Source: Gammaproteobacteria bacterium
Lineage (GTDB): Bacteria; Pseudomonadota; Gammaproteobacteria; Pseudomonadales; Pseudohongiellaceae
Length of the DNA: 41,422 nt
NCBI GenBank assembly: GCA_030654835.1
Contig: JAURWS010000004.1
Span: 1-41,422 of the forward strand
Reading direction: 5' to 3'
The notes below the pieces were generated by a model. It saw nothing but the letters and a program-made list of their open reading frames with translations. It had not been told where the DNA came from and made no database searches. Of the stretch, positions 22,412 to 37,073 are shown one piece after another. The position numbers and the translations under genes are program-made. The stretch's first letter is position 1. Every line of letters begins with the position of its first letter.

Positions 22412-24982
22412 TCAGGCAGCGGCGCGCAGCAGTTTTTCACATTCAGCGGGGGGAAGTGCGGGATGCATGAGCCAGCCCTGGATGGCGTCGCACTGGCACA
22501 GGCGCAGGACGGCCAGCTGTTCGACTGTCTCCACGCCTTCCGCCAGCACCTTCAGCCCAAGGCTGCGCGCCAGGCTGACCAGCCCGCAGACGATGGCGGC
22601 ACTCTTGGTGTTGCTGTCCACGTCGCGCATGAAGCTGCGGTCGATCTTGAGGGTATGCAGGGGGTACATCTGCAGCGAGGCCAGCGAGGAGTAACCGGTG
22701 CCAAAATCATCAATCGACACATGCAGGCCCAGTGCTACCAGTTCGGTGAGTATCTCGGCGACGACCTCGGGATTGTCCATCAGCGCCGTCTCGGTCAGCT
22801 CCAGCCCCAGCTGCTGCGGGTCGACACCCGTCTGCGCCAGCACCTGACACACCAGCGCCAGCAGGCTGCCTTCCTGGCGGAAATGCAGGGCCGAGATGTT
22901 GACGGAAACGCGGTGCGGAAAGCCCATCAGGGTCCAGGCGCGGATTTGCCGACAGGCCTGCAACAACACCCATTCTGTCAGCGGAATGATTAGTCCGCTG
23001 GTCTCCGCCACGGGGATGAATATCTCTGGCGATATCCAGCGGCCATCCAGCGCGCGCCAGCGCAGCAGCGCCTCGAAGCCGCAGATTTCCCCATCCGCCA
23101 CGCCGTACTGGGGCTGGTAGTAGAGTTCGAACTCTTCCATCTCCAGAGCCTCGGCCAGCAGCACCTTCAGCCGCAGAGTCTCCTGTTGCACCATGCCAAT
23201 GCCTTCGTCGAAGTAGCAGATGGCATGGCGCCCCATCGACTTGGCGCGATACATGGCGATGTCGGCATGAGAGATCAGCGTCTCCGCATCGCGCGCGTGT
23301 TGCGGGTAGCTGGCGAGACCGATGCTGACGGTGACATGAAAGTGGTGCTTGCCGATGCTGAAAGCGGGTTGCAGCGACTTGACGATCTTCTCCGCAATCG
23401 CGGCGACAGCCTCGTTCGAAACCAGCTCGGTCACCAAGACCACGAACTCGTCGCCGCCGAAGCGAGCCACGGTGTCACTCTGCCGCAGCGCCGCGCTGAT
23501 GCGTTGCGACACGGCCACCAGCAGTTCGTCGCCCACACTGTGGCCCCAGCCATCGTTGATGTCCTTGAAGTTGTCCAGGTCCAGCATCATCAGCGCACAG
23601 CTGGTTTTCTGGCGCGTGGCCTGAATCAGGCTGCGATCCAGACGATCCTGCAGCAAGGCCCGATTAGGCAGTCCGGTCAGCGAGTCATGCGTCGCGCGGT
23701 GCTGCATCGCCAGCTCCATCTCCCGGCGCTCCGACACATCGCGAATGAAAGCAGTGATCTCGATGCCCGTCGAGCCGTTGCTCTTGCCTAAAGAAATATC
23801 CAGGGGAATCTCGCTGCCGTCCTTGCGCCGCCCCACCAGCCCACGGGTCGCCGCCATTGCTCGCCCGGTCGGCATGCGCATATAGGCGGCGCGCAGATCA
23901 GTGTGTCGGTGCCGCACGGCCAGGGGCAGCAGTTTTTCCAGCGCCTGCCCGCGCAGCTCTTGCCGCGAATAACCAAACATGCTTTCCACCTGCGCGTTGA
24001 GCCGGATGATGACCCCTGCATCATCGACAGTTAGGATGCCGTCGGGCGCGTTCTCGAAAATATCTTCCTGGCGCCGTGTAAACACATCCATGGCACTGTA
24101 GAGGCGCCGCAGACGTGCCAGCGGAAGCGCCGCACCATCCAGGAAGATGGCACGATAGAGGAAGATATACGCCGCCATGGTGTACAGATGCCCAACGATG
24201 TTGCTGGGACGCTGCACGCTGTTGTAGTTGAGGGAAAAAAGTTCGCCAAGCGCGAGCAGGCTCACCGCTATTCCGAGTGCGGTAAGATTGTTGACCTGAA
24301 TGCGCTCGGCCCGGCTGCGAATGACCAGCAGCGACACCACATGCAGACCAACGGTCAGAGCCTGCACCAGTAGAAAGCCAACGTCCCCAGCCGTCTCTGC
24401 GGAGTAAGTCAACGGAATCCACGCCGAGCGAAATTCGAAGAGGAAAATGACGAAGATCAGGAGCGTGACGGTGACGCCCAAAAACCAGAAGCGCGCCTGC
24501 AGCGAGGGGCTGCGCTGCTCGCCCTTCTCCAGCGGCATCGACACGAAGACGAGCAGCGCGCCAGCGGCGATCAGCCTCGCCGCGAGGGAATAGAGCATTC
24601 CCTTTTGAGGGGTGTTCGTGGTGATGAACTCTGGCATTTCCGCATTGGATAGCAGATGGCCTGCATTCAACACAGCGACAGACAACGCGGCGCAGGCCAG
24701 CAGTACGGCGGTGTAGGAGCGCTGAGTATCAAGCAGCTGCCAGCCCACGACGAAGATACAGGCTACCGCCGTAATGGAGAACATTTCCAGCAGCGAATGG
24801 ACCCACACGGCGTGCTGGAGGGTCAGCAATTCAATCCCCTCCAACAACGACAAGACCATCATTAAGGGCAGAGCAAACACAATCAGTGCGGCCCCTGCGC
24901 GATTGAACAGAAGCAGCCCTCTGAACCAGAGGCGGAGCGGATGTAACGAATTCATGCTGTCATTCTTATTATTATTTTCCAT
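22412..24982 (-). CDS. Membrane-anchored PAS-GGDEF-EAL c-di-GMP enzyme
   Basis: A bifunctional-type cyclic-di-GMP protein, about 856 residues. The N-terminal ~285 residues hold about eight membrane helices in a MASE3-like sensor (HSLLEMFSITAVACIFVVGWQLLDTQR is characteristic). A PAS domain follows (about 310-425), then a GGDEF domain with intact R-F-G-G-D-E-F, and an EAL domain with E-A-L-L-R-W, N in VSVNIS, E in LELTE, D-D-F-G-T-G-Y, K in LKIDR and E in LAEGVET. Both active sites look complete, so it may synthesise and degrade c-di-GMP. ATG 24982 is used as start; TTG 24991 and ATG 24952 are alternatives. It neighbours a two-component pair and a chemotaxis cluster. Confidence 0.93.
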   Translation of the reverse strand: MENNNKNDSMNSLHPLRLWFRGLLLFNRAGAALIVFALPLMMVLSLLEGIELLTLQHAVWVHSLLEMFSITAVACIFVVGWQLLDTQRSYTAVLLACAALSVAVLNAGHLLSNAEMPEFITTNTPQKGMLYSLAARLIAAGALLVFVSMPLEKGEQRSPSLQARFWFLGVTVTLLIFVIFLFEFRSAWIPLTYSAETAGDVGFLLVQALTVGLHVVSLLVIRSRAERIQVNNLTALGIAVSLLALGELFSLNYNSVQRPSNIVGHLYTMAAYIFLYRAIFLDGAALPLARLRRLYSAMDVFTRRQEDIFENAPDGILTVDDAGVIIRLNAQVESMFGYSRQELRGQALEKLLPLAVRHRHTDLRAAYMRMPTGRAMAATRGLVGRRKDGSEIPLDISLGKSNGSTGIEITAFIRDVSERREMELAMQHRATHDSLTGLPNRALLQDRLDRSLIQATRQKTSCALMMLDLDNFKDINDGWGHSVGDELLVAVSQRISAALRQSDTVARFGGDEFVVLVTELVSNEAVAAIAEKIVKSLQPAFSIGKHHFHVTVSIGLASYPQHARDAETLISHADIAMYRAKSMGRHAICYFDEGIGMVQQETLRLKVLLAEALEMEEFELYYQPQYGVADGEICGFEALLRWRALDGRWISPEIFIPVAETSGLIIPLTEWVLLQACRQIRAWTLMGFPHRVSVNISALHFRQEGSLLALVCQVLAQTGVDPQQLGLELTETALMDNPEVVAEILTELVALGLHVSIDDFGTGYSSLASLQMYPLHTLKIDRSFMRDVDSNTKSAAIVCGLVSLARSLGLKVLAEGVETVEQLAVLRLCQCDAIQGWLMHPALPPAECEKLLRAAA

Positions 24983-24991
24983 ACGTTCCAA

Positions 24992-25215: not shown

Positions 25216-25851
25216 TCAGGGCTCAATCATGTGATTGCGCAACGCATAGCGCACCAGTTCGCTCATCGAACCAAGTGCCATCTTCTGCATGATGCGGAAT
25301 TTGTGGGTGCTGACAGTCTTGCCGGAGATATGCAATTTTTCGCTGATCTGGTTGATGCCAAGCCCGTTGGCCAGCAGCAGAAACACCTGCATTTCACGAT
25401 CTGACAAACGCTCATGTTGCTCAGATTCGTCAGCATGCGGGTCACCAAACAACAAACGCGCCCCAAGCTCTGGATGAATGTAATGCTGTCCTCGCGCGCA
25501 ATTGCGAATGGCCGCCAGAATCATCTCTGGCTCGCTGTCCTTGGTCAGATACCCAGTAGCGCCAGCCTTGATGGCGCGGCCTACCAGCTGGGCTTCCGCG
25601 TGCATCGACAGAACCAGTATCGGCAACGCAGGCCGCAGCTCCCGCACCTGCCGGATCAACTCGACGCCGGTGATTCCTGGCATGTTCATGTCGGTGAGCA
25701 GGAGATCAAACTGCTCGATCTCGATTTTTTTCAGCAAGTCCCGTCCGTTGGCAACTTCCGCTGCCAACTCAATATCGTCTGCCATCGCCAGCACGCGTCG
25801 CAGCCCCTGCCTCACAATCATGTGGTCATCGGCCACCAGTACGCGAATCAT
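25216..25851 (-). CDS. NarL/FixJ-type response regulator
   Basis: A 211-residue two-component regulator. The receiver domain (1-118) has acidic residues D8-D9, phospho-acceptor D54 in LLLTDMNMPG and the conserved Lys in YLTKDSEP. The C-terminal LuxR-type helix-turn-helix (LSDREMQVFLLLANGLGINQISEKLHISGKTVSTHKFRIMQKM) is complete. It is 10 bp downstream of the kinase gene on the same strand and is certainly its partner. UvrY/GacA-like regulators have this layout, but the identity cannot be fixed. Targets are unknown. Confidence 0.93.
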   Translation of the reverse strand: MIRVLVADDHMIVRQGLRRVLAMADDIELAAEVANGRDLLKKIEIEQFDLLLTDMNMPGITGVELIRQVRELRPALPILVLSMHAEAQLVGRAIKAGATGYLTKDSEPEMILAAIRNCARGQHYIHPELGARLLFGDPHADESEQHERLSDREMQVFLLLANGLGINQISEKLHISGKTVSTHKFRIMQKMALGSMSELVRYALRNHMIEP

Positions 25852-25861
25852 GCTCCTGTCC

Positions 25862-27568
25862 CTATGCTTTGATAGAAGTACGCAGCGGAATGCGCACGCT
25901 CACCCGGGTGCCTTTGTGCGGTCGGCTTTCAATGTAGCTGATTCCGCCGAATATCAATGCCCGCTCGCGCATCCCCATCAAACCAAACCCCGTTTCCTCT
26001 CGCACCACTCTTGGATCGAACCCAACGCCATTGTCGCGAATACTCATGGTGAACTCCTCGTCATCCCTCGCCATGGACACAGAGACCTCGGTGGCACTCG
26101 CATGGCGAGCCACATTGGTCAGGGATTCCTGCAATATGCGAAACGCGGCAACGGTGCGAGGCTCGTCCAGCTCAAGCGTATCCGCCGTCATTTCCGGATC
26201 GCAGTGAATGGTACAGCTGACGCCAGTGCGCTCCTGAAAACTCGTCAACAACCACTGCGCAGCCGGCACGAGGCCGGCATCCAGCGCCTCAGGCCGCGCA
26301 CTGGACGCAATGTCGCGAACCACTTTGATCATGTTATCGATGCTGCTTTTCATGTCGCACAGCGTCTCGTCAAACTGATGGTCATCAGGCGCAATGCGCA
26401 TCTGCAGCATGGCTGCATCCAGCCGCAGCGCTGTCAACCACTGCCCCATCTCATCGTGCAATTCGCGAGAAATCCTGCGGCGCTCTTCTTCACGAATTCT
26501 TTCGTTATGGGCGGCAAGCTCCCTGATCATGGCTCTGGAGCGCAGCAGTTCCAGCTCCTTCAGCTTCATGTCGGTGATGTCTTGTACGGTGCCAACGCCG
26601 ACGCAGATCTCCCCGTCGGCAGAAAATTCCAGCTCGGCGATTTCCCGCACCCACAGGGTCTCGCCGCCCACCACGATGCGATGCTGAATATCATACGGCA
26701 TCCCCTGCAGGGCCTCCTGCCAGCTGCGATTCACCATGTTGCGGTCATCGGGATGTACTGCGTCAAGAAATCTCTGGTAGGTCAGTCGTGCGTCAGATGG
26801 TGCCGCAAATATCCGGCGACATTCCTCGGACCACTCCAGACGATCCTGAGCGACATCCAGCCGCCAGCTGCCTAGACGTACCTGAGCTTGTGCCTGCGCC
26901 AGCAAAAATTCGCTCTCTCGCAGCCTCTGCTCCGCCAGGCGACGCTCGCTGATATCAAGCACATTCAGCACGATAAATCCTGTGAAACCCTGTGCCGTCT
27001 TGACGGCGCTGCCGTCGATCAACACCGATATACGATTGCCACCGGCGCTTACACACTCGGCCTCGAAGCGACAATGCCCGCGCTCCAGAACTTGAACCAG
27101 ATTAAACGCCAATTCATCTTTATATGCAGGGGCGTAAAGAGTGTCGACAGTGCATCCTAATAGCTCCACCCGCTCGCCGCCATGCATGGTGGCGAAGGCC
27201 GGATTGAACAGAAGGAGCTTGCGGTCATAAGCGCTGACCAGAGCAATTCCCCATTGTGCATTGAAAAAAAGCTGACGCCATTGTGAAAGCATAGCGCCCG
27301 AATTGCGCAAATCATTAATCTCGCTGGCGATGCGATAGCCGCCCAGTTCGCAGCTCAGAATTACTGCGGACAGAAGCGCACCCAAAGCCAGTGCCGAATG
27401 CCCTTGCGAGTAGAAACCACCGGCCACGACGATCCCGACAGCCAACAGTAGCGCCAGAGTGCCCATAAAGAATGGCAATAGGCTACGGGTTGGATGCAGA
27501 GCAGCACGGAGCTTGAGGAGTGCTCCTTGAAAGCTCTTGATAAATTTTGTGTCTGTGTGTTTTCTCAT
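25862..27568 (-). CDS. PAS-containing NarX-type sensor histidine kinase
   Basis: A 568-residue membrane kinase. Two hydrophobic helices (about 30-50 and 56-75) anchor it with almost no periplasmic loop, so sensing is likely cytoplasmic or within the membrane. Two PAS/PAC modules follow (about 95-215 and 220-335). The HisKA_3 dimerisation domain carries the phospho-acceptor in RRISRELHDEMGQWLTAL, and the HATPase domain has D-N-G-V-G-F-D-P and G-F-G-L-M-G-M-R-E-R. This architecture pairs with LuxR-type regulators, consistent with the next gene. The ligand is unknown. Confidence 0.92.
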   Translation of the reverse strand: MRKHTDTKFIKSFQGALLKLRAALHPTRSLLPFFMGTLALLLAVGIVVAGGFYSQGHSALALGALLSAVILSCELGGYRIASEINDLRNSGAMLSQWRQLFFNAQWGIALVSAYDRKLLLFNPAFATMHGGERVELLGCTVDTLYAPAYKDELAFNLVQVLERGHCRFEAECVSAGGNRISVLIDGSAVKTAQGFTGFIVLNVLDISERRLAEQRLRESEFLLAQAQAQVRLGSWRLDVAQDRLEWSEECRRIFAAPSDARLTYQRFLDAVHPDDRNMVNRSWQEALQGMPYDIQHRIVVGGETLWVREIAELEFSADGEICVGVGTVQDITDMKLKELELLRSRAMIRELAAHNERIREEERRRISRELHDEMGQWLTALRLDAAMLQMRIAPDDHQFDETLCDMKSSIDNMIKVVRDIASSARPEALDAGLVPAAQWLLTSFQERTGVSCTIHCDPEMTADTLELDEPRTVAAFRILQESLTNVARHASATEVSVSMARDDEEFTMSIRDNGVGFDPRVVREETGFGLMGMRERALIFGGISYIESRPHKGTRVSVRIPLRTSIKA

Positions 27569-28051
27569 GAATTGTTCACGGGCAGTTCTAACTTTTTTGA
27601 GAGTCCCCGAGACCCTTCATCTTTCGCCAACATGAGACAGGAGTGCGGGGCTTGTTATTGCAGGGGTCGAAGAGAGTGGCAGGACCACGCCGGAAAGAGA
27701 CCTACTTTCTGGTCGCTATCGTAATAGGAATTATTGATATTAACCATGATCGAAATCAATAAGCGTCAGAATTTCAAGTGACCGACAGCACAGTACTGGA
27801 AAATTTCCATAGAAAAGTAATCCATTTCCTACCCTGTAAAGATATACCCCTACATAAAAAGAAAGCTATTCCCGTCAAGCGTAATCCTTTGACGACAGCA
27901 ACTCAATTCGGCATGAGTGTATCCCTTAATTTGGGGGAATTCACTAAAGCTTGCAGTTTGCGCGTCGATGTCCAGTAACAATGAAAAGCGCCGCGAGTGT
28001 GATTCCAGACGACGGAGATCCACTGCATCAATCGGGTTCAACAAAGGTCTC
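27569..28051. other. Divergent intergenic region with chemotaxis promoter
   Basis: 483 bp between the divergent kinase and receptor genes, AT-rich in its right half, with no convincing gene. It contains a widely spaced inverted repeat ATTGAT (27733-27738) / ATCAAT (27755-27760) and the sigma-28-like promoter at 27945-27971. A reading frame opens at 27917, upstream of that promoter, and is not thought to be translated there. Confidence 0.6.
27945..27971 (+). promoter_or_regulatory. Sigma-28 (FliA)-type promoter of the chemotaxis cluster
   Basis: TAAAGCTT, 11-bp spacer, GTCGATGT. Compared with the flagellar consensus TAAAGTTT-N11-GCCGATAA, seven of eight -35 bases and five of eight -10 bases agree, with the exact spacing. 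Transcription would begin near 27978, about 75 bp before the receptor ATG at 28052. Confidence 0.6.
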
Positions 28052-29257
28052 ATGATGAAACACACTGCCATGTATTCAATCCTGATTCCCACGGCGATTG
28101 GACTGTTGGGAGCAGGCCTTTCCTTCTACGGCGCAAGCGAAAGTGTTGCAATGACGACTACCCCCATATTGGTCGGCCTGGTGTCAGGATTGTGGCTGAA
28201 CGTGCACATCAAACGCGACGCACAGGCGCAGATCAGCGCGGCAATCGATGATGCACTGGCTTCGCAAAAACCCTCGTGCAACCACGTCGAGGGACTCGAC
28301 ACGCTGTGCACCCGGGTGATGCCAATCTGGGCGCGACAACTGGTCTCCGTCAATGGTCAGACCGAAAGCGCCATCACCCATCTCTCCGGTAGTTTCTCCG
28401 ACATCAACGGTCGGCTTGATGCCGTGCTGCGCAACTTTCACAACTACGGTGGCAACGACAGCGGCAATTCAAAAGCTCACACGAAAAGCCCGGGAAACAA
28501 GGACAAATCTTCTCCACAGGGCGTCGTGGCGCTGATCGACAAAGGCCGCAGTGATCTCGAAGAAATGCTCAGCAATCTGCGCAGCGGCATGGCCGCCAAG
28601 AACGACATGGCGCTCCGGATCAAACAGATATCCGAGCTCTCCCATGAACTGAAAGACATGGCTGGCGCTGTCTCGGCGATCGCCTCTCAGACCAACCTGC
28701 TGGCCCTCAATGCTGCGATCGAGGCGGCCCGCGCCGGAGAGGCAGGCCGGGGGTTTGCCGTGGTCGCAGACGAAGTACAAAAGCTCTCCAGCCGCTCCGG
28801 CAGCACAGGAAAGCAGATCGCCGACCGCGTGCTGTGCGTGGATCAGGCCATCCAGAAAATCGTGCAAGCGGCCGAGCAACACGCGAGTGTCGAAGAGCTC
28901 GCCCTGCAGGAGTCGGAGCAAACCATCAAGACTGTCCTCGCCGTGTTTTCCGAAACGGTCGGCCATCTCAATGCGGCCACCACCAGCTTCGAGCATGAGG
29001 GGCACAACATTCAGACTGCCATTGCCGACGTACTTGTCGGGTTGCAATACCAGGATCGCATCAGCCAGATACTCAGCCACGTCACGGCCGATCTCGAACG
29101 CCTGCAGCAGTACGTCGATTCCGGGGCGCGCCATATCGACCCTGAGAGGTGGCTTGAGGAGCTTTCCAGAACCTATACCACGCTTGAGCAGCACGATCAT
29201 CACAAGGGAGTCCGCAACGACTCCGCTGCCAGTGCGTCAGGCATCACTTTTTTCTAA
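28052..29257 (+). CDS. Sensorless methyl-accepting protein with CheZ-like tail motif
   Basis: A 401-residue chemoreceptor-like protein. Two membrane helices near the N-terminus (about 5-25 and 30-48) are joined by a few residues, so there is no periplasmic sensor. A linker (to about 200) leads to a short signalling hairpin with the universal tip ([41 protein letters not shown] split over 215-260). The methylation region after the tip is shortened and diverged. Near the C-terminus [11 protein letters not shown] has D335 and Q339 in D-x-x-x-Q spacing, like the CheY-P phosphatase site of CheZ. There is no CheR pentapeptide. The start at ATG 28052 has AAAGG 5-8 bp upstream and lies after the FliA-type promoter. 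cheY follows 25 bp later. Confidence 0.85.
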
Positions 29258-29282
29258 CTGGACATTCCTTTAAGAGGATCGC

Positions 29283-29651
29283 ATGAACAAGACCATCATG
29301 ATCGTGGACGACTCGGCCAGCATTCGCCAGGTCGTCGGGTTGACACTGAAGAACGCGGGCTATGACACCGTAGAGGCTGTAGACGGCAGAGACGCCGTCG
29401 GCAAACTGGATGGACGCCGCGTTCACCTGATCATCTGCGATGTCAACATGCCCAACATGGATGGCATCTCTTTCGTTAAACAGATGAAGACCATGCCGAG
29501 CTACCGTTTCACACCCGTGATCATGCTGACCACCGAGGCTGGCGAATCCAAGAAGCAGGAGGGTCAGCTTGCTGGTGCCCGTGCCTGGGTCGTGAAGCCG
29601 TTTCAGCCAGCGCAAATGCTGGCCGCCGTGTCGAAATTGATTCTTCCCTGA
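29283..29651 (+). CDS. cheY: Single-domain response regulator CheY
   Basis: A 122-residue stand-alone receiver domain that carries the phosphoryl signal from CheA to the motor or acts as a phosphate sink. It has D9-D10 in IVDDSAS, phospho-acceptor in ICDVNMPNMDG (D near 52), T in MLTTEAG and K in VVKPFQP. It has no output domain. AAGAGGATCGC precedes the ATG. It lies between the sensorless receptor and a STAS gene. Whether it binds FliM or serves another output cannot be decided from sequence. Confidence 0.94.
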   Translation: MNKTIMIVDDSASIRQVVGLTLKNAGYDTVEAVDGRDAVGKLDGRRVHLIICDVNMPNMDGISFVKQMKTMPSYRFTPVIMLTTEAGESKKQEGQLAGARAWVVKPFQPAQMLAAVSKLILP

Positions 29652-29697
29652 GCCCAGACCCTGAACACCATGCCTGACTGACGCGAGCACCAACACC

Positions 29698-30033
29698 ATG
29701 ACACACGAATTTCTCGACCAAGACGATGGACGATTGATGGTCCGACTGGAGGGAGAACTCTCCATCTACAGAGCTGGAGAGCTCAAACAGCTCCTGCTCG
29801 ATGCGCTAAATGCCTGCAATGATCTGCAGATCGATCTTGGCGGTATCACAGAGATTGATAGCGCCGGGGTACAGCTGCTGTTGCTGGCCAAGAACGAGGC
29901 GTTGCGTTGCGGCAAGACATTCAGCATGAGCCGTCACAGTCTGGCGGTGATCGAGTTGCTGGAACTCTACAATCTGTCGCCGTGGTTTGGCGATGTGCTA
30001 GTCATTCCCGCGCGCGAGGTCAGAGCATTATGA
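29698..30033 (+). CDS. STAS-domain protein in the chemotaxis operon
   Basis: A 111-residue STAS-domain (anti-sigma-factor antagonist fold) protein. The phosphorylatable serine motif is intact in IDLGGITEIDSAGVQLLLLAK. This architecture is known from a subset of chemosensory clusters with cheY before and cheA after; its role there is not settled. Its stop codon overlaps the cheA start (ATGA at 30030-30033), which implies stoichiometric production with CheA and a direct interaction. No kinase of the RsbW type is in the window, so regulation by Ser phosphorylation would need an outside partner. Confidence 0.9.
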   Translation: MTHEFLDQDDGRLMVRLEGELSIYRAGELKQLLLDALNACNDLQIDLGGITEIDSAGVQLLLLAKNEALRCGKTFSMSRHSLAVIELLELYNLSPWFGDVLVIPAREVRAL

Positions 30034-32219
30034 GCGCTGCAAGCACTATGGCCGATGCCTTTCAAACTTTCCTCGCCGAGGGCCTGGGTCTGCTGCAGGA
30101 GATGGACGAAGGTCTCCTGCGTCTCGAAGACTACCCGACAGACGAAGAAGCCATTAACGCCGTCTTTCGTGCGGCCCACACCATCAAAGGCTCTGCAGGC
30201 CTGTTCGGGCTGGACGAGATTGTCGCGTTCACTCACAACGTCGAGAGCGTGCTGGATCGGGTCCGAGAAGGGACATTGTCCTTCAGCGGCGAGATGGTCG
30301 GCGTGATGTTTCGCTGCAGAGATCATATGGGCGAGCTGCTCCTGTTGGTCAGCAGCGAAAGCGAGATCGGTGGTGCGTTGCTGCACGAAGGGGAACAGCT
30401 GAGCGCACTGCTGCGCCGTCATCTCGGTGACTCCCACACCTTGGCATTGCAGCCGGACGAGCCCCGTCAGCAACAGGCGCAGCTCGACTCGCCAGTGGAT
30501 ATTCAACTGGACGGCGCACAACACGACGACACCTGGCACATCTCACTGCGCTTTGCTGCCGAGGTTCTGCAGAACGGCATGGACCCCGCCTCGTTCATCC
30601 GCTACTTGCACACACTTGGGAAAGTAACGCAGATCGAGACCCTGTTCGATACCCTGCCACCGGCGGAGCAGATGAACCCCGAGCACTGTTATCTGGGTTT
30701 CGAGATCCGCTTTCGTGGCGATGTCGCCAAATCCACCATCGAAGGCATCTTCGATTTCGTGCGCGACGATTGTGCACTGCGCATTCTGCAACCCGGCAGC
30801 AAGGTATCTGACTACATCCAGCTGATACAGGAATTGCCGGAGGAAGATCTGCGGCTCGGAGATCTGCTGGTCAAAGTCGGCGCGATTACCCAGCGCGAGC
30901 TGGAACGCGGTCTCGCCACACAACAGAACAATGTCTCCATCGAGCATGGCACCGGCCCGCTGGGGTCCATCCTCATCGAACAACACGCTGTGCAGCCCGA
31001 ACTGGTGGATGCCGCAGTGGCACGTCAGCAGGATGTACGGCAGCGCCAGAATCAGGAATCGCGCCTGATTCGCGTGCACGCCGACAAGCTCGACAGCTTG
31101 ATCAACCTGGTCGGCGAACTGGTCATCGCCAACGCCGGGGTCGGACTACTGGCGGCTCAGGGCAAGGACACCAGAATGATCGAGGCGCACTCCGACGTCT
31201 CCAGACTGGTCGAGGACATCCGTGATGAAGCCATGCGCCTGCGTATGGTGGAGATCGGCGAGACCTTCAACCGCTTCCGCCGCGTGGTGCGGGACGTCGC
31301 CCGCGAGCTGGGCAAGGACATCGCTCTCACCATCAGTGGCGCGGACACGGAACTGGACAAGTCCGTAGTCGAACGCATCGCCGATCCGCTGACTCACTTG
31401 GTGCGCAACGCGGTCGACCACGGCATAGAGAGCGCCGCCGAGCGGCTGGCGGCAGGCAAGCCCGCGCAGGGTCAGTTGCACCTGAATGCCTTCCACGAGT
31501 CAGGCAACATCATCATCGAGGTCAGTGATGACGGCGGTGGTCTGGACCGCGACCGCATTCTGACCAAAGCTATCGAAAAAGGGCTGGTCAACCCGGGCGA
31601 CCACCTCTCGGACAAGGATATCTGCAACCTCATCTTCGAGGCCGGTTTCTCCACCAGCGACAAGGTCTCGAATCTCTCCGGGCGTGGCGTCGGCATGGAT
31701 GTGGTGCGCCGCAATATCCAGGCGCTGCGTGGCACCGTCGAGATCGACAGTCAGCAAGGCGTCGGTTCGATCTTCCGCCTGCGGTTGCCGCTCACCCTGG
31801 CGATCATCGACGGGTTCCTGATGGGGGTGGGCGACGATCACTACGTGGTGCCGTTGGACATGGTGGTGGAGTGCGTGGAGCTGCAGGCCGGGGCCGACGC
31901 GCAACAGGGCTATATCAACCTGCGCAACGAGGCATTGCCCTTGCTGCTGGTCCGTCAACATTTCGGGCTGCCAGAGGCCCAGCGGCGCCGCCAGAACGTG
32001 GTGGTGGTCAACGACGGCGGCCGCAAGGCGGGACTCGTCGTCGACGACCTCAAGGGCGAGCTGCAGGCCGTCGTCAAACCGCTGGGCAGCATGTTCGACC
32101 AGCTGCGCGGCATCTCGGGCTCCACCATTCTCGGCTCTGGCGAGGTGGCGCTGATGCTCGATGTTCCGGTGCTTCTGCAACAGGCTACTCGCCAGGCAAG
32201 CACGCTTATCACCCACTGA
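30030..32219 (+). CDS. cheA: Chemotaxis histidine kinase CheA with MshEN-like repeats
   Basis: Central kinase, 729 residues from ATG 30030. The P1 Hpt domain has phospho-acceptor H50 (AAHTIKGSAGLFGLDEI). A middle region (about 150-260) corresponds to P2. Residues 275-333 hold two copies of a short helical repeat: R275-L-G, L280, G284, L291, L295, Q298, then P310-L-G, L315, H319, V326, V330, Q333. The first fits the c-di-GMP-binding MshEN half-motif exactly; the second is degenerate. Next come P3 dimerisation (DKLDSLINLVGELVIA), P4 catalytic (LVRNAVDHGIE, DDGGGLD, SGRGVGMDVVR) and P5 CheW-like (LPLTLAIIDGFL). The start overlaps the STAS stop. Confidence 0.95.
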   Translation: MSAASTMADAFQTFLAEGLGLLQEMDEGLLRLEDYPTDEEAINAVFRAAHTIKGSAGLFGLDEIVAFTHNVESVLDRVREGTLSFSGEMVGVMFRCRDHMGELLLLVSSESEIGGALLHEGEQLSALLRRHLGDSHTLALQPDEPRQQQAQLDSPVDIQLDGAQHDDTWHISLRFAAEVLQNGMDPASFIRYLHTLGKVTQIETLFDTLPPAEQMNPEHCYLGFEIRFRGDVAKSTIEGIFDFVRDDCALRILQPGSKVSDYIQLIQELPEEDLRLGDLLVKVGAITQRELERGLATQQNNVSIEHGTGPLGSILIEQHAVQPELVDAAVARQQDVRQRQNQESRLIRVHADKLDSLINLVGELVIANAGVGLLAAQGKDTRMIEAHSDVSRLVEDIRDEAMRLRMVEIGETFNRFRRVVRDVARELGKDIALTISGADTELDKSVVERIADPLTHLVRNAVDHGIESAAERLAAGKPAQGQLHLNAFHESGNIIIEVSDDGGGLDRDRILTKAIEKGLVNPGDHLSDKDICNLIFEAGFSTSDKVSNLSGRGVGMDVVRRNIQALRGTVEIDSQQGVGSIFRLRLPLTLAIIDGFLMGVGDDHYVVPLDMVVECVELQAGADAQQGYINLRNEALPLLLVRQHFGLPEAQRRRQNVVVVNDGGRKAGLVVDDLKGELQAVVKPLGSMFDQLRGISGSTILGSGEVALMLDVPVLLQQATRQASTLITH

Positions 32220-32265
32220 CAGTTAAACGATCGCTACTCAATAACAACCAAGGAGCACTACTCCC

Positions 32266-33927
32266 ATGATCTCGAATATGACGGTAAAGGCGAAACTCAT
32301 CGCGCTGCTTGCCACAGCCATTCTCTCGGCGCTGCTCATCACCGCGACGGCATTCTACGGGCTCACCCAGCTCGCCACGGCGATGACCGAGACGGGCGAG
32401 GTCCGCCTGCCCTCGGTGCACGGGCTGCTGGAAATGAAGGAAGGACAAACCTCCGTACGTGCCACCAATCTCTGGGCGCTGACCTGGGAGAACAACTATG
32501 AGGCGCAGGAGCGCTTTCGTGATGTGCTGGCGGCCAAGGCCACCGCGTGGACCAATATCGAGTCCGGGCGCAGCCTCTATGAACCGCTGCCCCAGACACC
32601 CGAAGAAGCCATCCTCTGGGACCGCTTCCAGAAAGAGTGGGCCCTGTGGGAAGCAGTGGACGACAAACTGACCCAGACCATCGACGACCTCTCCAGTAAC
32701 CGTTCGCAGGAAGAACAGCAGGCATTGTTTGCGCAGTTGATTGCCCAGCTGGCCGAGATCGGACCGCTGTACTTCACCACCGTGGAAACCATGACCGAAC
32801 TCGTCGACCTGAACGTCGCACTGGCAGACGAGGCAGTGGTTGCAGGACGCGCTGCCGACAGCCAGGTGCAGAGCATCATGATCATCATTGCCAGCGCCGC
32901 AACGCTGTTGCTGATTGCACTGGGCCTGTTCGTGATTCGCAGCATCCTCAGTCAGCTGGGTGGCGATCCCATCTATGTGTCCGCTCTGGTTGGCAGGATT
33001 GCCGGTGGAGATCTGTCGGTGCACGTCGACCTGCAGCCCGGTGACAACACCAGCATGCTCTCCGCCATCAAAGGCATGGCCGAGAAGATCTCGCAAATCA
33101 TCGCCGAAGTGCGAGCGGCTTCGGACAATCTCTCTTCGGCCTCCGAGCAGGTGTCGGCAACTGCTCAGTCATTGAGTCAGGGTGCCAGCGAACAGGCGGC
33201 TTCCGTGGAAGAAACAAGCTCCAGCATCGAGCAAATGAGCGCTTCCATTGCTCAGAACACCGACAATGCCAAAGTCACCGATGGCATCGCCTCTCGTTCT
33301 GCCGTCGAGGCCGCCGAGGGCGGTGACGCGGTCAAGCGCACGGTGGAAGCCATGCAGAGCATCGCTGGCAAGATCAGCATCATCGACGACATCGCCTATC
33401 AGACCAATCTGCTCGCTCTGAACGCCGCGATAGAGGCGGCTCGTGCTGGTGAACACGGCAAGGGCTTCGCCGTGGTAGCTGCGGAAGTTCGCAAGCTGGC
33501 GGAGCGCTCACAGGTGGCCGCACAAGAGATCGGTGGATTGGCAGGCGGCTCCGTCGCCATGGCTGAACGGGCCGGGAAACTGCTGGATGACATGGTCCCG
33601 AACATCCGCAAAACCTCCGATCTGGTGCAGGAGATTACAGCGGCGAGCGAGGAGCAAAGCAGTGGTGTCGGCCAGATCAACTCCGCAATGAACCAGCTCA
33701 ATCAGGCCACGCAACAGAATGCCAGCGCTGCGGAAGAACTCGCGGCCACCGCTGAGGAAATGAGCAGCCAGGCCGAACAACTGCAGGAGCTGATGAGCTT
33801 CTTCAAGCTGACCGGGACGAATAACGCTCCGCTGCAGAAGAAAGCTTCGTCCAAGGGAGGCGGCCGAGCCTCCGCTCCGGCGACCTTCGTCGACACCCGG
33901 AACAGCCCCGAATTCGTGCGCTTCTAA
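32266..33927 (+). CDS. Methyl-accepting chemotaxis receptor with CheR/CheB-tethering tail
   Basis: A 553-residue class receptor. TM1 is about 10-30, the periplasmic four-helix-bundle sensor about 31-202, and TM2 about 203-225. A HAMP domain follows, then a long signalling hairpin with the conserved tip ([38 protein letters not shown] as residues about 378-416) and both methylation helices. After a flexible Lys/Gly/Ala-rich linker the protein ends E-F-V-R-F. This fits the receptor C-terminal pentapeptide pattern x-aromatic-x-x-aromatic, which recruits CheR and CheB. Both enzymes are in this operon, so this is probably its dedicated receptor. The ligand is unknown. It lies 46 bp after cheA and 11 bp before cheW. 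Confidence 0.94.
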
Positions 33928-33938
33928 GGGGTACAGCC

Positions 33939-34538
33939 ATGAACCAGTCAATGAGAAACCAGGTCGTCAGCAACCAGGTCGTCAACCGCCCTGGCGTCAA
34001 TCAAGGGCTCAAATCCTTGCTGAATCGTCAGGTCGATGCCCACAGCGATCACGAGCAGGAGGCCCATCAATATCTGACCTTCATGCTCGGCGCAGAGGTC
34101 TTTGCCATCGGCATCCTGCACATCAAGGAAATCATCGAATACGGAAAACTAACAACAGTGCCGATGATGCCGGACTTCATCCGCGGCGTGATCAATCTAC
34201 GCGGCGCCGTGGTGCCGGTGATTGACCTGTCACGCCGCTTCGGCGGCATGCGCAGCCAGATCAGCCGCCGCAGTTGTATCATCATCCTCGAACTGCATTC
34301 GGACGAAGAACGCCATGTGATCGGCGTGGTGGTGGATGCCGTCAATGAGGTGCTGGATATCCAAGACGCCGAGATCGAAGCAGCGCCAGCCTTCGGTACC
34401 AGCGTGCGCAGCGACTTCATTGCCGGGATGGGCAGGATTCAGGAGTCGTTTGTGATCATTCTCGACGTGAACAACGTCCTCTCCGGGAAGGACCTGAACC
34501 TGTTGACGGAACTCGAGCACAGCGAGGTGGAAGATTGA
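33939..34538 (+). CDS. cheW: Chemotaxis coupling protein CheW
   Basis: A 199-residue CheW adaptor linking receptors to CheA. The SH3-like double-barrel core runs from about residue 42 (YLTFMLGAEVFAIGILHIKEIIEY) to the end. It has the receptor-binding G-V-I-N-L-R-G-x-V-V-P-V-I-D-L segment and a terminal VIILDVNNVLSG strand. The N-terminal 40 residues are an unusual Asn/Gln/Val-rich extension with near-repeats (NQVVSNQVVN) absent from typical CheW (about 160 residues). An internal start is possible, but a Shine-Dalgarno-like AAGGGG supports the first ATG. Confidence 0.95.
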   Translation: MNQSMRNQVVSNQVVNRPGVNQGLKSLLNRQVDAHSDHEQEAHQYLTFMLGAEVFAIGILHIKEIIEYGKLTTVPMMPDFIRGVINLRGAVVPVIDLSRRFGGMRSQISRRSCIIILELHSDEERHVIGVVVDAVNEVLDIQDAEIEAAPAFGTSVRSDFIAGMGRIQESFVIILDVNNVLSGKDLNLLTELEHSEVED

Positions 34539-35404
34539 TTTCCTTGCGCAGCGTCACGGCGAAGAACGGCTCCGGCGCTGCGGTCGGCGGTGCGGTCAGT
34601 GATGAATTGCAAGATCGCGAATTCGCGCAGTTTCGCGACCTGATTTTTCGGGTGGCAGGCATCAGCATGACACCCGCCAAGAAGCCCCTGGTGGCAGGAC
34701 GCCTGCACAAGCGCCTGCGCCACCACGGCCTGAAGTCCTATGCAGAGTATCTCGATCTGCTCGATCAGTTTCCGGAAGAGATGCAGATCGCCATCGACCT
34801 GCTCACCACCAACGAAACCCATTTCTTTCGTGAACCCAAGCATTTCGAATTTCTGCGGCACGAGTTGCTGCCCCGCCACTTCGCGCAGGATTCAAGCAAG
34901 AGTCCACTGCGCATCTGGAGCGCGGCCTCCTCCAGCGGACAGGAGGCCTACAGTCTGGCCATGCTGCTCAACGAGGTGGCCGCACGGGAGCCATGGGAAA
35001 TCTTTGGTTCCGATATCAGCACACGCGTGCTGGAGCAGGCGCGCGCGGGCGTCTACAACATCGATCAGGCCCATGAAATCCCCGACCCCTATCTGCAGGC
35101 CTGCTGCCTGCGCGGTGTGGGCGGCCAGGCGGGCAACTTTGCCATCGACCCGGCGCTGAAGTCGCGAGTCGCCTTCGCGCATATCAACCTGAACGAAACA
35201 CTGCCAGATGTAGGCCGCTTCGACGTGATCTTCCTGCGCAACGTCCTGATCTATTTTCAGCCCGAGACCAAGCGCGAGGTGATCAACCGCCTGCTGGAGA
35301 AACTGCGCCCGGGTGGCCACTTCATCGTCGGGCATTCCGAGAGCCTCAATGGGATCACCCCGGGCTTGCAGACCGTCGCCGCTTCCATCTACAGGAAACC
35401 CTGA
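34535..35404 (+). CDS. cheR: Chemoreceptor methyltransferase CheR
   Basis: SAM-dependent glutamate methyltransferase of receptors, 289 residues. The N-terminal helical domain has R-L-H-K-R-L-R and TTNETHFFRE. The SAM-binding motif is IWSAASSSGQEAYSLAM (usual form S-S-T-G-E-E-P-Y-S). It also has D in GSDIS, the beta-subdomain region that binds receptor pentapeptides, and FDVIFLRNVLIYF. The start is TTG (34535) overlapping the cheW stop TGA, with GAGGTGG 8 bp upstream; no ATG gives the complete N-domain. The partner receptor with an E-F-V-R-F tail is two genes upstream. Confidence 0.95.
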   Translation: MISLRSVTAKNGSGAAVGGAVSDELQDREFAQFRDLIFRVAGISMTPAKKPLVAGRLHKRLRHHGLKSYAEYLDLLDQFPEEMQIAIDLLTTNETHFFREPKHFEFLRHELLPRHFAQDSSKSPLRIWSAASSSGQEAYSLAMLLNEVAAREPWEIFGSDISTRVLEQARAGVYNIDQAHEIPDPYLQACCLRGVGGQAGNFAIDPALKSRVAFAHINLNETLPDVGRFDVIFLRNVLIYFQPETKREVINRLLEKLRPGGHFIVGHSESLNGITPGLQTVAASIYRKP

Positions 35405-35982
35405 TGCACAAGCCGCCGCATGTCATCGAGATCTACCTGCAACCCGGTGAATACTGGTTCGGCGACGAGGACACCCGCATCCGCACCATCCTCGGCTCCT
35501 GTGTCGCCATCACATTGTGGCATCCGCACAAGCGCATCGGCGGCATGTGCCATTTCATGCTGCCTGCGCGCAACCATCAATCGCGGGCGGGGCCCGCTCC
35601 CACAATGGCGCCGGATGGACGCTATGGAGATGAGGCGGTGCGGCTGCTGTGCGAGGAGATCGAGCGCAGTGGCAGCTGTGCCACAGAGTTCGAGGCCAAG
35701 CTGTTCGGCGGTGGCCGCATGTTCCGACCGGGTCCGCAAAGGCTGCACAGGCCCGGCGCCATGACACGCGACTCGGCTACCGACAGTATTCATGACCGCA
35801 ACATCGAGGCCGGGCGCGAGCTGATGCGACGACACGGCATCCGTGTCGTCGCCGAACATCTGGGCGGGCTCGGACATCGTCAGGTGGTCTTCGACATCTG
35901 GAGCGGTCACGCCTGGATGAAACATACCCCGCTGCCTGCCGAGACCGTTTCCCAGCTTGAAGAACATGGAGATGTGCTGTGA
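35404..35982 (+). CDS. cheD: Receptor glutamine deamidase CheD
   Basis: CheD deamidates receptor glutamines and can bind CheC/CheY-P. A 192-residue protein with the catalytic Cys-His pair C33 (TILGSCVAI) and H50 (GGMCHFMLP), and KLFGGGRMF near residue 97. Between H50 and the next conserved strand (DGRYGDEA, 71-78), residues 59-67 (QSRAGPAPT) are encoded by a REP element (35580-35604), lengthening a surface loop. Both catalytic residues remain. The ATG overlaps the cheR stop, and the stop overlaps the cheB GTG start, so cheR-cheD-cheB are translationally chained. Confidence 0.94.
35580..35604. repeat. REP unit embedded in cheD
   Basis: ATCGCGGGCGGGGCCCGCTCCCACA-type single REP unit, translated in frame as part of a CheD surface loop. 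It matches the right half of the metG copy (CCCGCTCCCACA). Confidence 0.82.
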
Positions 35983-37073
35983 AACCCATTCGTCTGATGA
36001 TCGTCGATGACTCCGCCACCGTGCGCCAGGTATTGTCCGCCATTCTTGATGCACAGCCGGACATGGAGGTAATCGCCACCGCCCAGGACCCTCTGTTTGC
36101 AATGGAAAAGATGCAGAAGGACTGGCCGGACGTCATCATTCTCGATGTCGAGATGCCACGCATGGACGGCATCACCTTCCTGCGCCGCCTGATGAGCGAG
36201 CACCCTACTCCGGTAGTGATTTGTTCGACACTCACCGAAAAAGGCGCCGAGACGACAATGCAGGCCCTGGCGGCCGGGGCCATCGGTTTCGTGACCAAAC
36301 CGAAGCTGGGTCTCAAGCAGTTCCTCATCGACGGCAGCGTCGACCTGGTGGCTCAGGTGCGTGCCGCTGCGCAAGCCAAGGTCCGCTCACCACGCGTTTT
36401 GCAGGCACCAGCGTCACAGGCGCAGCCGTTGAGGGCACAGCCGTTGCAACGTCTGGACCTCTCCCCCGCAGCATTGCAGGCCATGGCAGAAACGACTGAC
36501 AAGGTAGTGGCGGTCGGCGCTTCCACGGGCGGCACCCAGGCGCTGGAGCTATTTCTGAGCAGCCTGCCGCGAGTCTCGCCGGGCATCGTGATCGTGCAGC
36601 ACATGCCAGAGAAATTCACGGCAGCCTTCGCCGGGCGCCTGAACAAGGTCTGTGCGCTGGAGGTCATGGAAGCGCGGCATGGAGATCGTGTCCTGCCCGG
36701 TCGCGCCTTGATTGCGCCAGGCGGCAAACACATGACGCTCAAGCGCAGCGGGGCACAGTATCAGGTGGAAGTGGTCGACGGTCCGCCGATCAATCGCCAC
36801 CGCCCCTCCGTCGATGTGCTGTTTCGCTCAGTTGCGCGCACGGCGGGTAGCAATGCCCTGGGCATTATCATGACGGGCATGGGCGACGACGGCGCGCGAG
36901 GACTACGACTGATGCATGATGCAGGCGCGACCACGCTGGCGCAGGACGAAGCCAGCTGTGTGGTCTATGGTATGCCGAAAGAAGCGGTGAAACTCGGAGG
37001 AGTGGATCGCTCGGTAGCACTTGAGGCACTTGCGACAGAGGTAGGACGTTTTACCGATTCAATCACCCACTGA
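35979..37073 (+). CDS. cheB: Chemotaxis methylesterase/deamidase CheB
   Basis: Removes receptor methyl groups when phosphorylated by CheA. A 364-residue protein with an N-terminal receiver having D10-D11 and phospho-acceptor D56 ([12 protein letters not shown]). A Gln/Ala/Pro-rich linker (about 130-172) follows, then the esterase with catalytic Ser182 (GASTGG), His208 (VQHMP) and Asp in MTGMGDDGA. The usual R-D/H-R-PSVD substrate loop is present ([11 protein letters not shown]). It starts at GTG, overlapping the cheD stop. It is the last gene of the cluster; 123 bp follow before the permease gene. Confidence 0.96.

Follow-up and report, generated by a model that had tools for sequence, protein, structure and literature searches.

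An MshEN N-subdomain between the P2-like and P3 domains of a gammaproteobacterial CheA, a probable c-di-GMP input on the kinase

Does a chemotaxis histidine kinase carry a c-di-GMP-binding module of its own? The question is raised by a cheA gene in a stretch of 41,422 nucleotides from a gammaproteobacterium of the Pseudohongiellaceae (contig JAURWS010000004.1; hereafter, the window). An initial annotation of this DNA noticed, between the P2 and P3 domains of the encoded kinase, a repeat that resembles the c-di-GMP-binding half-motifs of MshEN domains. We conclude that residues 275-333 of this CheA are an MshEN N-subdomain located at the joint between P2 and P3, and that it most likely serves as an input for c-di-GMP on the kinase. 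The features of the gene that bear on this reading are as follows.

30030..32219, + strand: cheA, encoding a chemotaxis histidine kinase of 729 amino acids, with its ATG at 30030
30525..30797, + strand: P2-like domain, residues 166-256, with a predicted beta-alpha-beta-beta-alpha-beta order
30852..30923, + strand: MshEN half-motif I, residues 275-298 (RLG...Q298)
30924..30956, + strand: spacer between the half-motifs, residues 299-309, 11 residues
30957..31028, + strand: MshEN half-motif II, residues 310-333 (P310, L311, G312, V326, V330, Q333)
30996..31163, + strand: continuous helix predicted by AlphaFold2, residues 323-378, from the last bundle helix into the first P3 helix

The domains of CheA follow one another in the order Hpt (P1), P2-like, MshEN N-subdomain, P3, HATPase (P4) and CheW-like (P5). 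Pfam models match the protein at residues 11-91 (Hpt), 344-403 (H-kinase_dim), 452-589 (HATPase_c) and 595-718 (CheW), all four above their cut-offs, and the P2-like domain has no Pfam match. The consensus that we used for an MshEN half-motif is RLGxx(L/V/I)(L/V/I)xxG(L/V/I)(L/V/I)xxxxLxxxLxxQ. Half-motif I of CheA reads RLGDLLVKVGAITQRELERGLATQ and conforms to this consensus with an alanine at position 11 as its sole departure; R275, L, G, L280, G284, L291, L295 and Q298 are all there in the translated protein, at exactly the residues first assigned to them. Half-motif II reads PLGSILIEQHAVQPELVDAAVARQ and is likewise as the initial annotation had described it, a weaker second copy 11 residues further on that has P310 in place of Arg, H319 in place of the turn Gly, and V326 and V330 in place of Leu. 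Together the two half-motifs extend from base 30852, where residue 275 begins, to base 31028, where residue 333 ends. A tandem-repeat search of the DNA found no repeat.

Homology with MshEN is evident from a curated family model. The NCBIfam entry NF053729 ('c-di-GMP_motif, MshE-related'; 53 positions, curated cut-off 38 bits) matches the whole CheA protein at residues 275-333 over its full length, with an E-value of 1.6e-8 and a score of 34.2 bits, which is under the cut-off. The score is 40.4 bits for the isolated 91-residue segment and 41 bits with the neighbours in frame. Relative to the model, which is matched from end to end, the longer spacer of CheA is an insertion. From a scan of bacterial genomes we took the best 80 of 131 confirmed orthologous loci, all of them with a CheA match, and NF053729 matches all 81 segments (the window and the 80 orthologues) at E<=1, with a best value of 1.1e-14. 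Models for PRK15489 and for NfrB, a c-di-GMP-activated glycosyltransferase, each give weak matches in 81 of the 81 segments. Weak matches to DUF4388 occur in 56 of the 81 (best E-value 1.3e-4).

Within the window's own genome, the strongest place for NF053729 scores 76.7 bits, CheA is second, and two weak places follow. The strongest place is an open reading frame of 588 residues with RIG...Q and RLG...Q half-motifs, a five-residue spacer between them and a match to Pfam PF05157 (MshEN) after them. A lone half-motif match of 19.4 bits is found elsewhere in the genome, in a 55-residue open reading frame (L117, G000:C44:25040-25132).

PF05157 itself has no match in CheA, nor is it among the families listed for the 81 segments. 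In proteins with recognisable half-motifs (L002, L086, L089, L096 and L110) the PF05157 match begins right after the second half-motif. The Pfam entry therefore models the C-terminal subdomain of MshEN, which CheA lacks, and the missing match does not count against the module. Since the Pfam model covers the other subdomain, surveys based on Pfam have probably missed the module in CheA.

Comparisons with known structures lead to the same family. A profile built from the segment alignment (A1) finds PilF (1.8e-16), PilB (6.8e-9) and MshE (5htl; 1.2e-5) among PDB sequences, the best PilF stretch being the third GSPII domain. When compared by hhalign with six MshEN N-subdomains that keep contact positions (three with all four Gly/Gln positions, three with three), the CheA module gives a probability of 97.9 and an E-value of 4.1e-13, as opposed to a probability of 0.7 against six degenerate MshEN domains that keep no Gly/Gln contact position. 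An AlphaFold2 model of the segment (pLDDT 80.9, pTM 0.68) has the four-helix bundle of an MshEN domain. The initial annotation had proposed a comparison of the predicted fold with MshEN structures, and the likeness was borne out: ranks 1 to 9 in Foldseek are all c-di-GMP-bound MshE or PilF GSPII-B (8pkz, 8pdk and 5htl among them), with probabilities of 0.99-1.00, an rmsd of 1.7-2.4 A over 55-63 columns and a TM-score (query) of 0.46-0.57, and with weak E-values of 0.06-0.28, none below 0.001, for a query that is short. In a model of residues 160-410 (pLDDT 77.1, pTM 0.48) confidence is lower at residues 340-349, the junction of bundle and P3. Foldseek with this longer model gave just weak ferredoxin-like matches for the P2-like part.

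The orthologues include members of Thauera, Azoarcus, Pseudomonas, Zobellella, Massilia, Methylophilus and Azospira. As the query of the scan contained the module, the set of 80 loci leans towards CheAs that have retained it. G277, L280, Q298, G312, L315, V326, A329 and Q333 are invariant in all 81 sequences. R275 is found in 70 (otherwise K in 6, L in 3 and M in 2) and G284 in 75; the R, L, G, L, L and Q of half-motif I are complete in 68 of the 81 when L, I or V is allowed at positions 17 and 21. In half-motif II, 50 sequences have P at position 310, 10 have Q, 7 have R and 7 have K; 26 of the 81 have G at position 319, and 20 have A at position 330. Loss of the ligand residues in close orthologues had been named beforehand as a result that would speak against the c-di-GMP reading. 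No such loss was seen: the Gly and Gln positions are kept in 81 of 81 sequences, and losses occur in some relatives that are more distant.

The spacer between the half-motifs is 6-28 residues long across the 81 aligned sequences, and at 11 residues that of the window's CheA departs from the five-residue spacer of MshE. The distance from C248 in the P2-like domain to G277 is 29 residues in 79 of the 81, and that from Q333 to A351 in P3 is 18 in 61 and 15-23 in the others. The ends of the module are thus kept at an almost constant distance from P2 and P3, while the loop in its middle is free. The variation between half-motif II and P3 also indicates that a strictly rigid helix is not universal.

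Several observations were made on the orthologues in passing. All 80 rows of alignment A2, which comprises 80 of the 81 sequences (L048 omitted), have the stretch FDFVRDDC unchanged in the P2-like domain. In five loci (L024, L026, L037, L047 and L077) cheA is split over two reading frames, possibly by frameshifts or assembly errors. A locus labelled as a Klebsiella pneumoniae MAG (L085) has a chemotaxis cluster of the same type, and that label may be wrong. The plasmids NZ_CP102455.1 (Aeromonas sp. BC14) and NZ_CP139142.1 (Pseudomonas sp. HR96) match over 88-95% of the stretch comprising the P2-like domain and the module, and are annotated as CheA only.

The contacts made by c-di-GMP in MshE allow the ligand site to be mapped onto CheA. 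According to the portions of the two reports available to us, these contacts are with the backbone at Gly-3, with Gln-24 of each half and with leucine clusters that reach across the halves (PMC5013675; PMC11731258). By this mapping, half-site I of CheA consists of R275, G277, L291, L295, L311 and Q298, all intact, and half-site II of P310, G312, L276, V326, V330 and Q333. Like the MshEN domain of Vibrio cholerae MshE (PDB 5HTL), the CheA module has two half-motifs of 24 residues, a predicted four-helix bundle, the Gly/Gln contact positions and the leucines of half-site I. However, it differs from MshE in having the N-subdomain only, a spacer of 11 residues rather than five, Pro in place of the second Arg, and valines in half-motif II, and in being fused to a histidine kinase.

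For two of these differences there are precedents. The isolated N-subdomain of MshE (MshEN 1-62) is reported, in the part of that study we could consult, to bind c-di-GMP with a KD of 0.35 uM (PMC5013675), so the missing C-subdomain is no bar to binding. The best sequence match to the CheA module is the GSPII-C domain of Thermus thermophilus PilF (a chain of PDB 6F8L). The two share a half-motif I of the RLG type, a half-motif II of the PLG type that ends in Q, and a spacer longer than five residues (seven in GSPII-C as aligned with the CheA profile); GSPII-C, unlike the CheA module, is part of a pilus ATPase and has a third half-motif. As far as the accessible text goes, it departs from the consensus only in the Pro that opens motif II, and it is assigned the weaker c-di-GMP site of PilF, with a KD of 324-460 nM (PMC11731258). 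Going by this partial account, Pro310 of CheA seems no bar to binding, although the precedent is not airtight, since elimination was the basis for assigning the site to GSPII-C, a domain with three half-motifs.

Does the fold in itself demand the contact residues? As a control we examined MshEN proteins of the window's genome and its relatives. From a PF05157 search, 33 of 34 loci were taken (L005, under the cut-off, was omitted); 32 were scored and 30, many of them from one genus, passed a pattern for the helical core. All four Gly/Gln positions are lost in 22 of these 30, kept in three and kept in part in five, as judged by a crude ungapped placement with a wrong register for L087; one of the five is misplaced. 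Most of the 22 are near relatives of one another and of a single ATPase-like kind, and their losses are therefore not independent. Nonetheless, they keep the core without the Gly and Gln residues, which are hence no requirement of the fold. Their invariance in CheA, when the fold can do without them, points to a ligand.

Because the orthologue set is biased towards the module, a wider sample was collected with a query limited to the P2-like domain (alignment A3). We searched 369 genomes of the class and took 90 of about 145 P2-like matches, spread along the score list and thus not random. A P2-like domain was considered close at >=80 bits and the module present at >=40 bits. The module is concentrated in CheAs with a close P2-like domain: of 43 such proteins it is present in 35, weak in three and absent in five, whereas it is present in only three of the 47 in which the P2-like domain scores below 80 bits. 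The eight close cases without a clear module, one weak and one absent of which have no P3 in the available stretch, indicate that the module is dispensable in some CheAs. Of the 38 sampled CheAs that have the module, all keep G277 and Q333, and 37 keep each of Q298 and G312; these counts are partly circular because membership was set by a profile of the same family. A few rows (e.g., L152, L154, L155 and L161) lost single letters in the fixed-length alignment of this sample, and its counts at positions 310 and 311 are off.

In L127, L129, L138, L146, L150 and L160, all of them CheAs whose P2-like domain is close, part or all of the module is missing. One genome (G304) has lost the module in one CheA paralogue and kept it in two others, and weaker relatives of the P2-like domain were found in many CheAs without the module.

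A quick tree with a midpoint root was made from the CheA domains other than the module for 88 of the 90 rows (two have no P3). On this tree, in which 46 of the 85 inner branches are open and L165, L208 and L159 form very long ends, the module label changes nine times, compared with a mean of 28.8 when labels are shuffled. The module is missing in 43 of the 44 rows of one strongly supported CheA group. Five CheAs that bear the module (L158, L161, L163, L173 and L176) adjoin this group rather than the window's CheA. In the last four of these distant proteins the spacer is five residues long, as in MshE, and in L176 half-motif II opens with Arg and has Thr at its second position. These five-residue spacers, with the seven of PilF GSPII-C, show that the family tolerates differences in spacer length. 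As judged from the tree, the module may be old in the sampled CheAs and may have been lost in the module-less group, with the long spacer a later change.

Could a helical linker simply happen to look like an LGxxLV repeat? The score of the whole protein falls below the NF053729 cut-off and Pfam finds no MshEN domain, but with an E-value of 1.6e-8 over the full model, matches in 81 of 81 segments, PDB matches by sequence alone and agreement of the fold, we regard coincidence as scarcely credible. The initial suggestion of an MshEN-like repeat can thus be sharpened, as sequence profile, profile-profile comparison, predicted fold and conservation of the contact residues all identify a real MshEN N-subdomain. 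Such a fold might still be kept without a ligand, as a rigid spacer or a docking surface between P2 and P3, in the manner of the N-domains of XpsE and PilB type. In favour of this reading, half-motif II is modified and the spacer lengthened, MshEN domains often lose the ligand residues while they retain the core (22 of 30 control segments), and the module is missing in some related CheAs. However, a spacer would not need the Gly and Gln residues that are invariant in both halves of 81 of 81 sequences and that 37-38 of the 38 module-bearing CheAs of the class sample retain, and the profile comparison favours domains that have kept the contact positions. We consider a ligand-free role unlikely, if by no means far-fetched.

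It is also conceivable, if quite improbable, that the ligand of the module is not c-di-GMP but a nucleotide akin to it, such as 3',3'-cGAMP. In the part of the MshE study at hand, MshEN is reported to bind cGAMP weakly, with a KD of 3.3e-4 M (PMC5013675), and the changed residues of half-site II mean that the half-sites of CheA are no longer equal. Against this, the backbone amides at motif positions 3 and 4 of MshEN discriminate against adenine, according to the same portion of that study (PMC5013675), and in CheA the third-position Gly does not vary in either half. Binding of c-di-GMP itself by the CheA module, as read from its sequence, is likely. An effect of c-di-GMP on the output of the kinase is a less secure proposition, though its chances seem somewhat better than even.

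If the module does bind c-di-GMP, the following arrangement is suggested. A four-helix bundle made of the two 24-residue half-motifs would sit between the P2-like and the dimerisation (P3) domains and would take up one c-di-GMP per subunit, across both half-motifs. Half-motif I would bind as it does in MshE, and half-motif II, with its Pro instead of Arg, as in PilF GSPII-C. The final bundle helix probably runs on into the first helix of P3. Through this shared helix, we propose, the ligand would tighten or turn the bundle and thereby alter autophosphorylation or phosphotransfer. Alternatively, the output might be routed through the placement of P1 and P2 instead of the P3 helix.

The genes around cheA form a chemotaxis cluster.

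22412..24991, - strand: MASE3-PAS-GGDEF-EAL gene, at a distance of 5.0 kb from the start codon of cheA and 5.9 kb from the motif, both of which follow it
27917..37073, + strand: chemotaxis cluster of MCP, CheY, STAS, CheA, MCP, CheW, CheR, CheD and CheB genes
29698..30033, + strand: STAS-domain gene between cheY and cheA, with a 4-base overlap with the cheA start

The initial annotation had linked the kinase to a complete GGDEF-EAL enzyme encoded about 5 kb away. Among the 80 orthologous loci, whose flanks of at most 6 kb would, if applied to the window, take in no more than the final half kilobase of the GGDEF-EAL gene, homologues of the STAS protein are found in 77, of CheY in 73, of the upstream MCP in 72, of the downstream MCP in 68, of CheW in 58 and of the GGDEF-EAL protein in 12. 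These flanks being too short for the purpose, the GGDEF-EAL gene was re-examined with about 10 kb on each side in 20 stretches from 17 genomes, picked for long contigs (one is clipped to 13 kb, and in one, L218, the CheA lacks the module). Three of the 20 contain a GGDEF or EAL homologue, 16 a STAS homologue, 19 CheY and 19 CheW. The distance that had been given is right, at 5.0 kb to the start codon; the link to CheA is not upheld, and we reject a nearby GGDEF-EAL gene as a regular partner of cheA (12 of 80 loci, three of 20 wide stretches). The STAS protein, with homologues in 77 of 80 loci and 16 of 20 wide stretches, is usual in chemotaxis clusters of this kind. Beside the cluster in the window, at 25216-27568, there is also a pair of genes for a NarL-type regulator and a PAS histidine kinase. 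Homologues of this pair are located just upstream of the first MCP gene in five of the 20 wide stretches (L212, L215, L218, L219 and L221), where it is commoner than the GGDEF-EAL gene, and the pair is perhaps loosely associated with the cluster.

The combination of CheA with MshEN has been named before. In the available part of Wang et al. 2016 (PMC5013675) a single sentence places MshEN with CheA and CheX; this is the same domain combination, and the CheAs meant there may or may not be of the present kind. The caution in the initial annotation that the architecture might not be unique was thus well founded, at least on that one sentence. In the main text of a survey of CheA architectures (Berry et al. 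2023; PMC10782961), as far as it was accessible, MshEN, T2SS and c-di-GMP are absent, and within the open-access literature on CheA with MshEN, T2SSE_N or MshE, to the extent that its text was available, we found no experimental test of c-di-GMP on such a CheA. Relative to the published combination, what is new here is the presence of the N-subdomain only, the modified second half, the long spacer and the junction to P3.

Crosstalk between c-di-GMP and chemotaxis mainly proceeds via receptors with PilZ domains, PilZ adaptors that act on CheR, and flagellar brakes. The Cbp1 receptor and MapZ are reportedly among the named examples. Whether many beta- and gammaproteobacterial CheAs use a bundle between P2 and P3 to sense c-di-GMP directly is on present sequence comparisons an evenly balanced matter. 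If they do, the second messenger would enter chemotaxis arrays at the kinase itself, and not via receptors, CheR or the motor. With c-di-GMP sensed within CheA, the route would be direct and simple, and the module is seen in many environmental proteobacteria.
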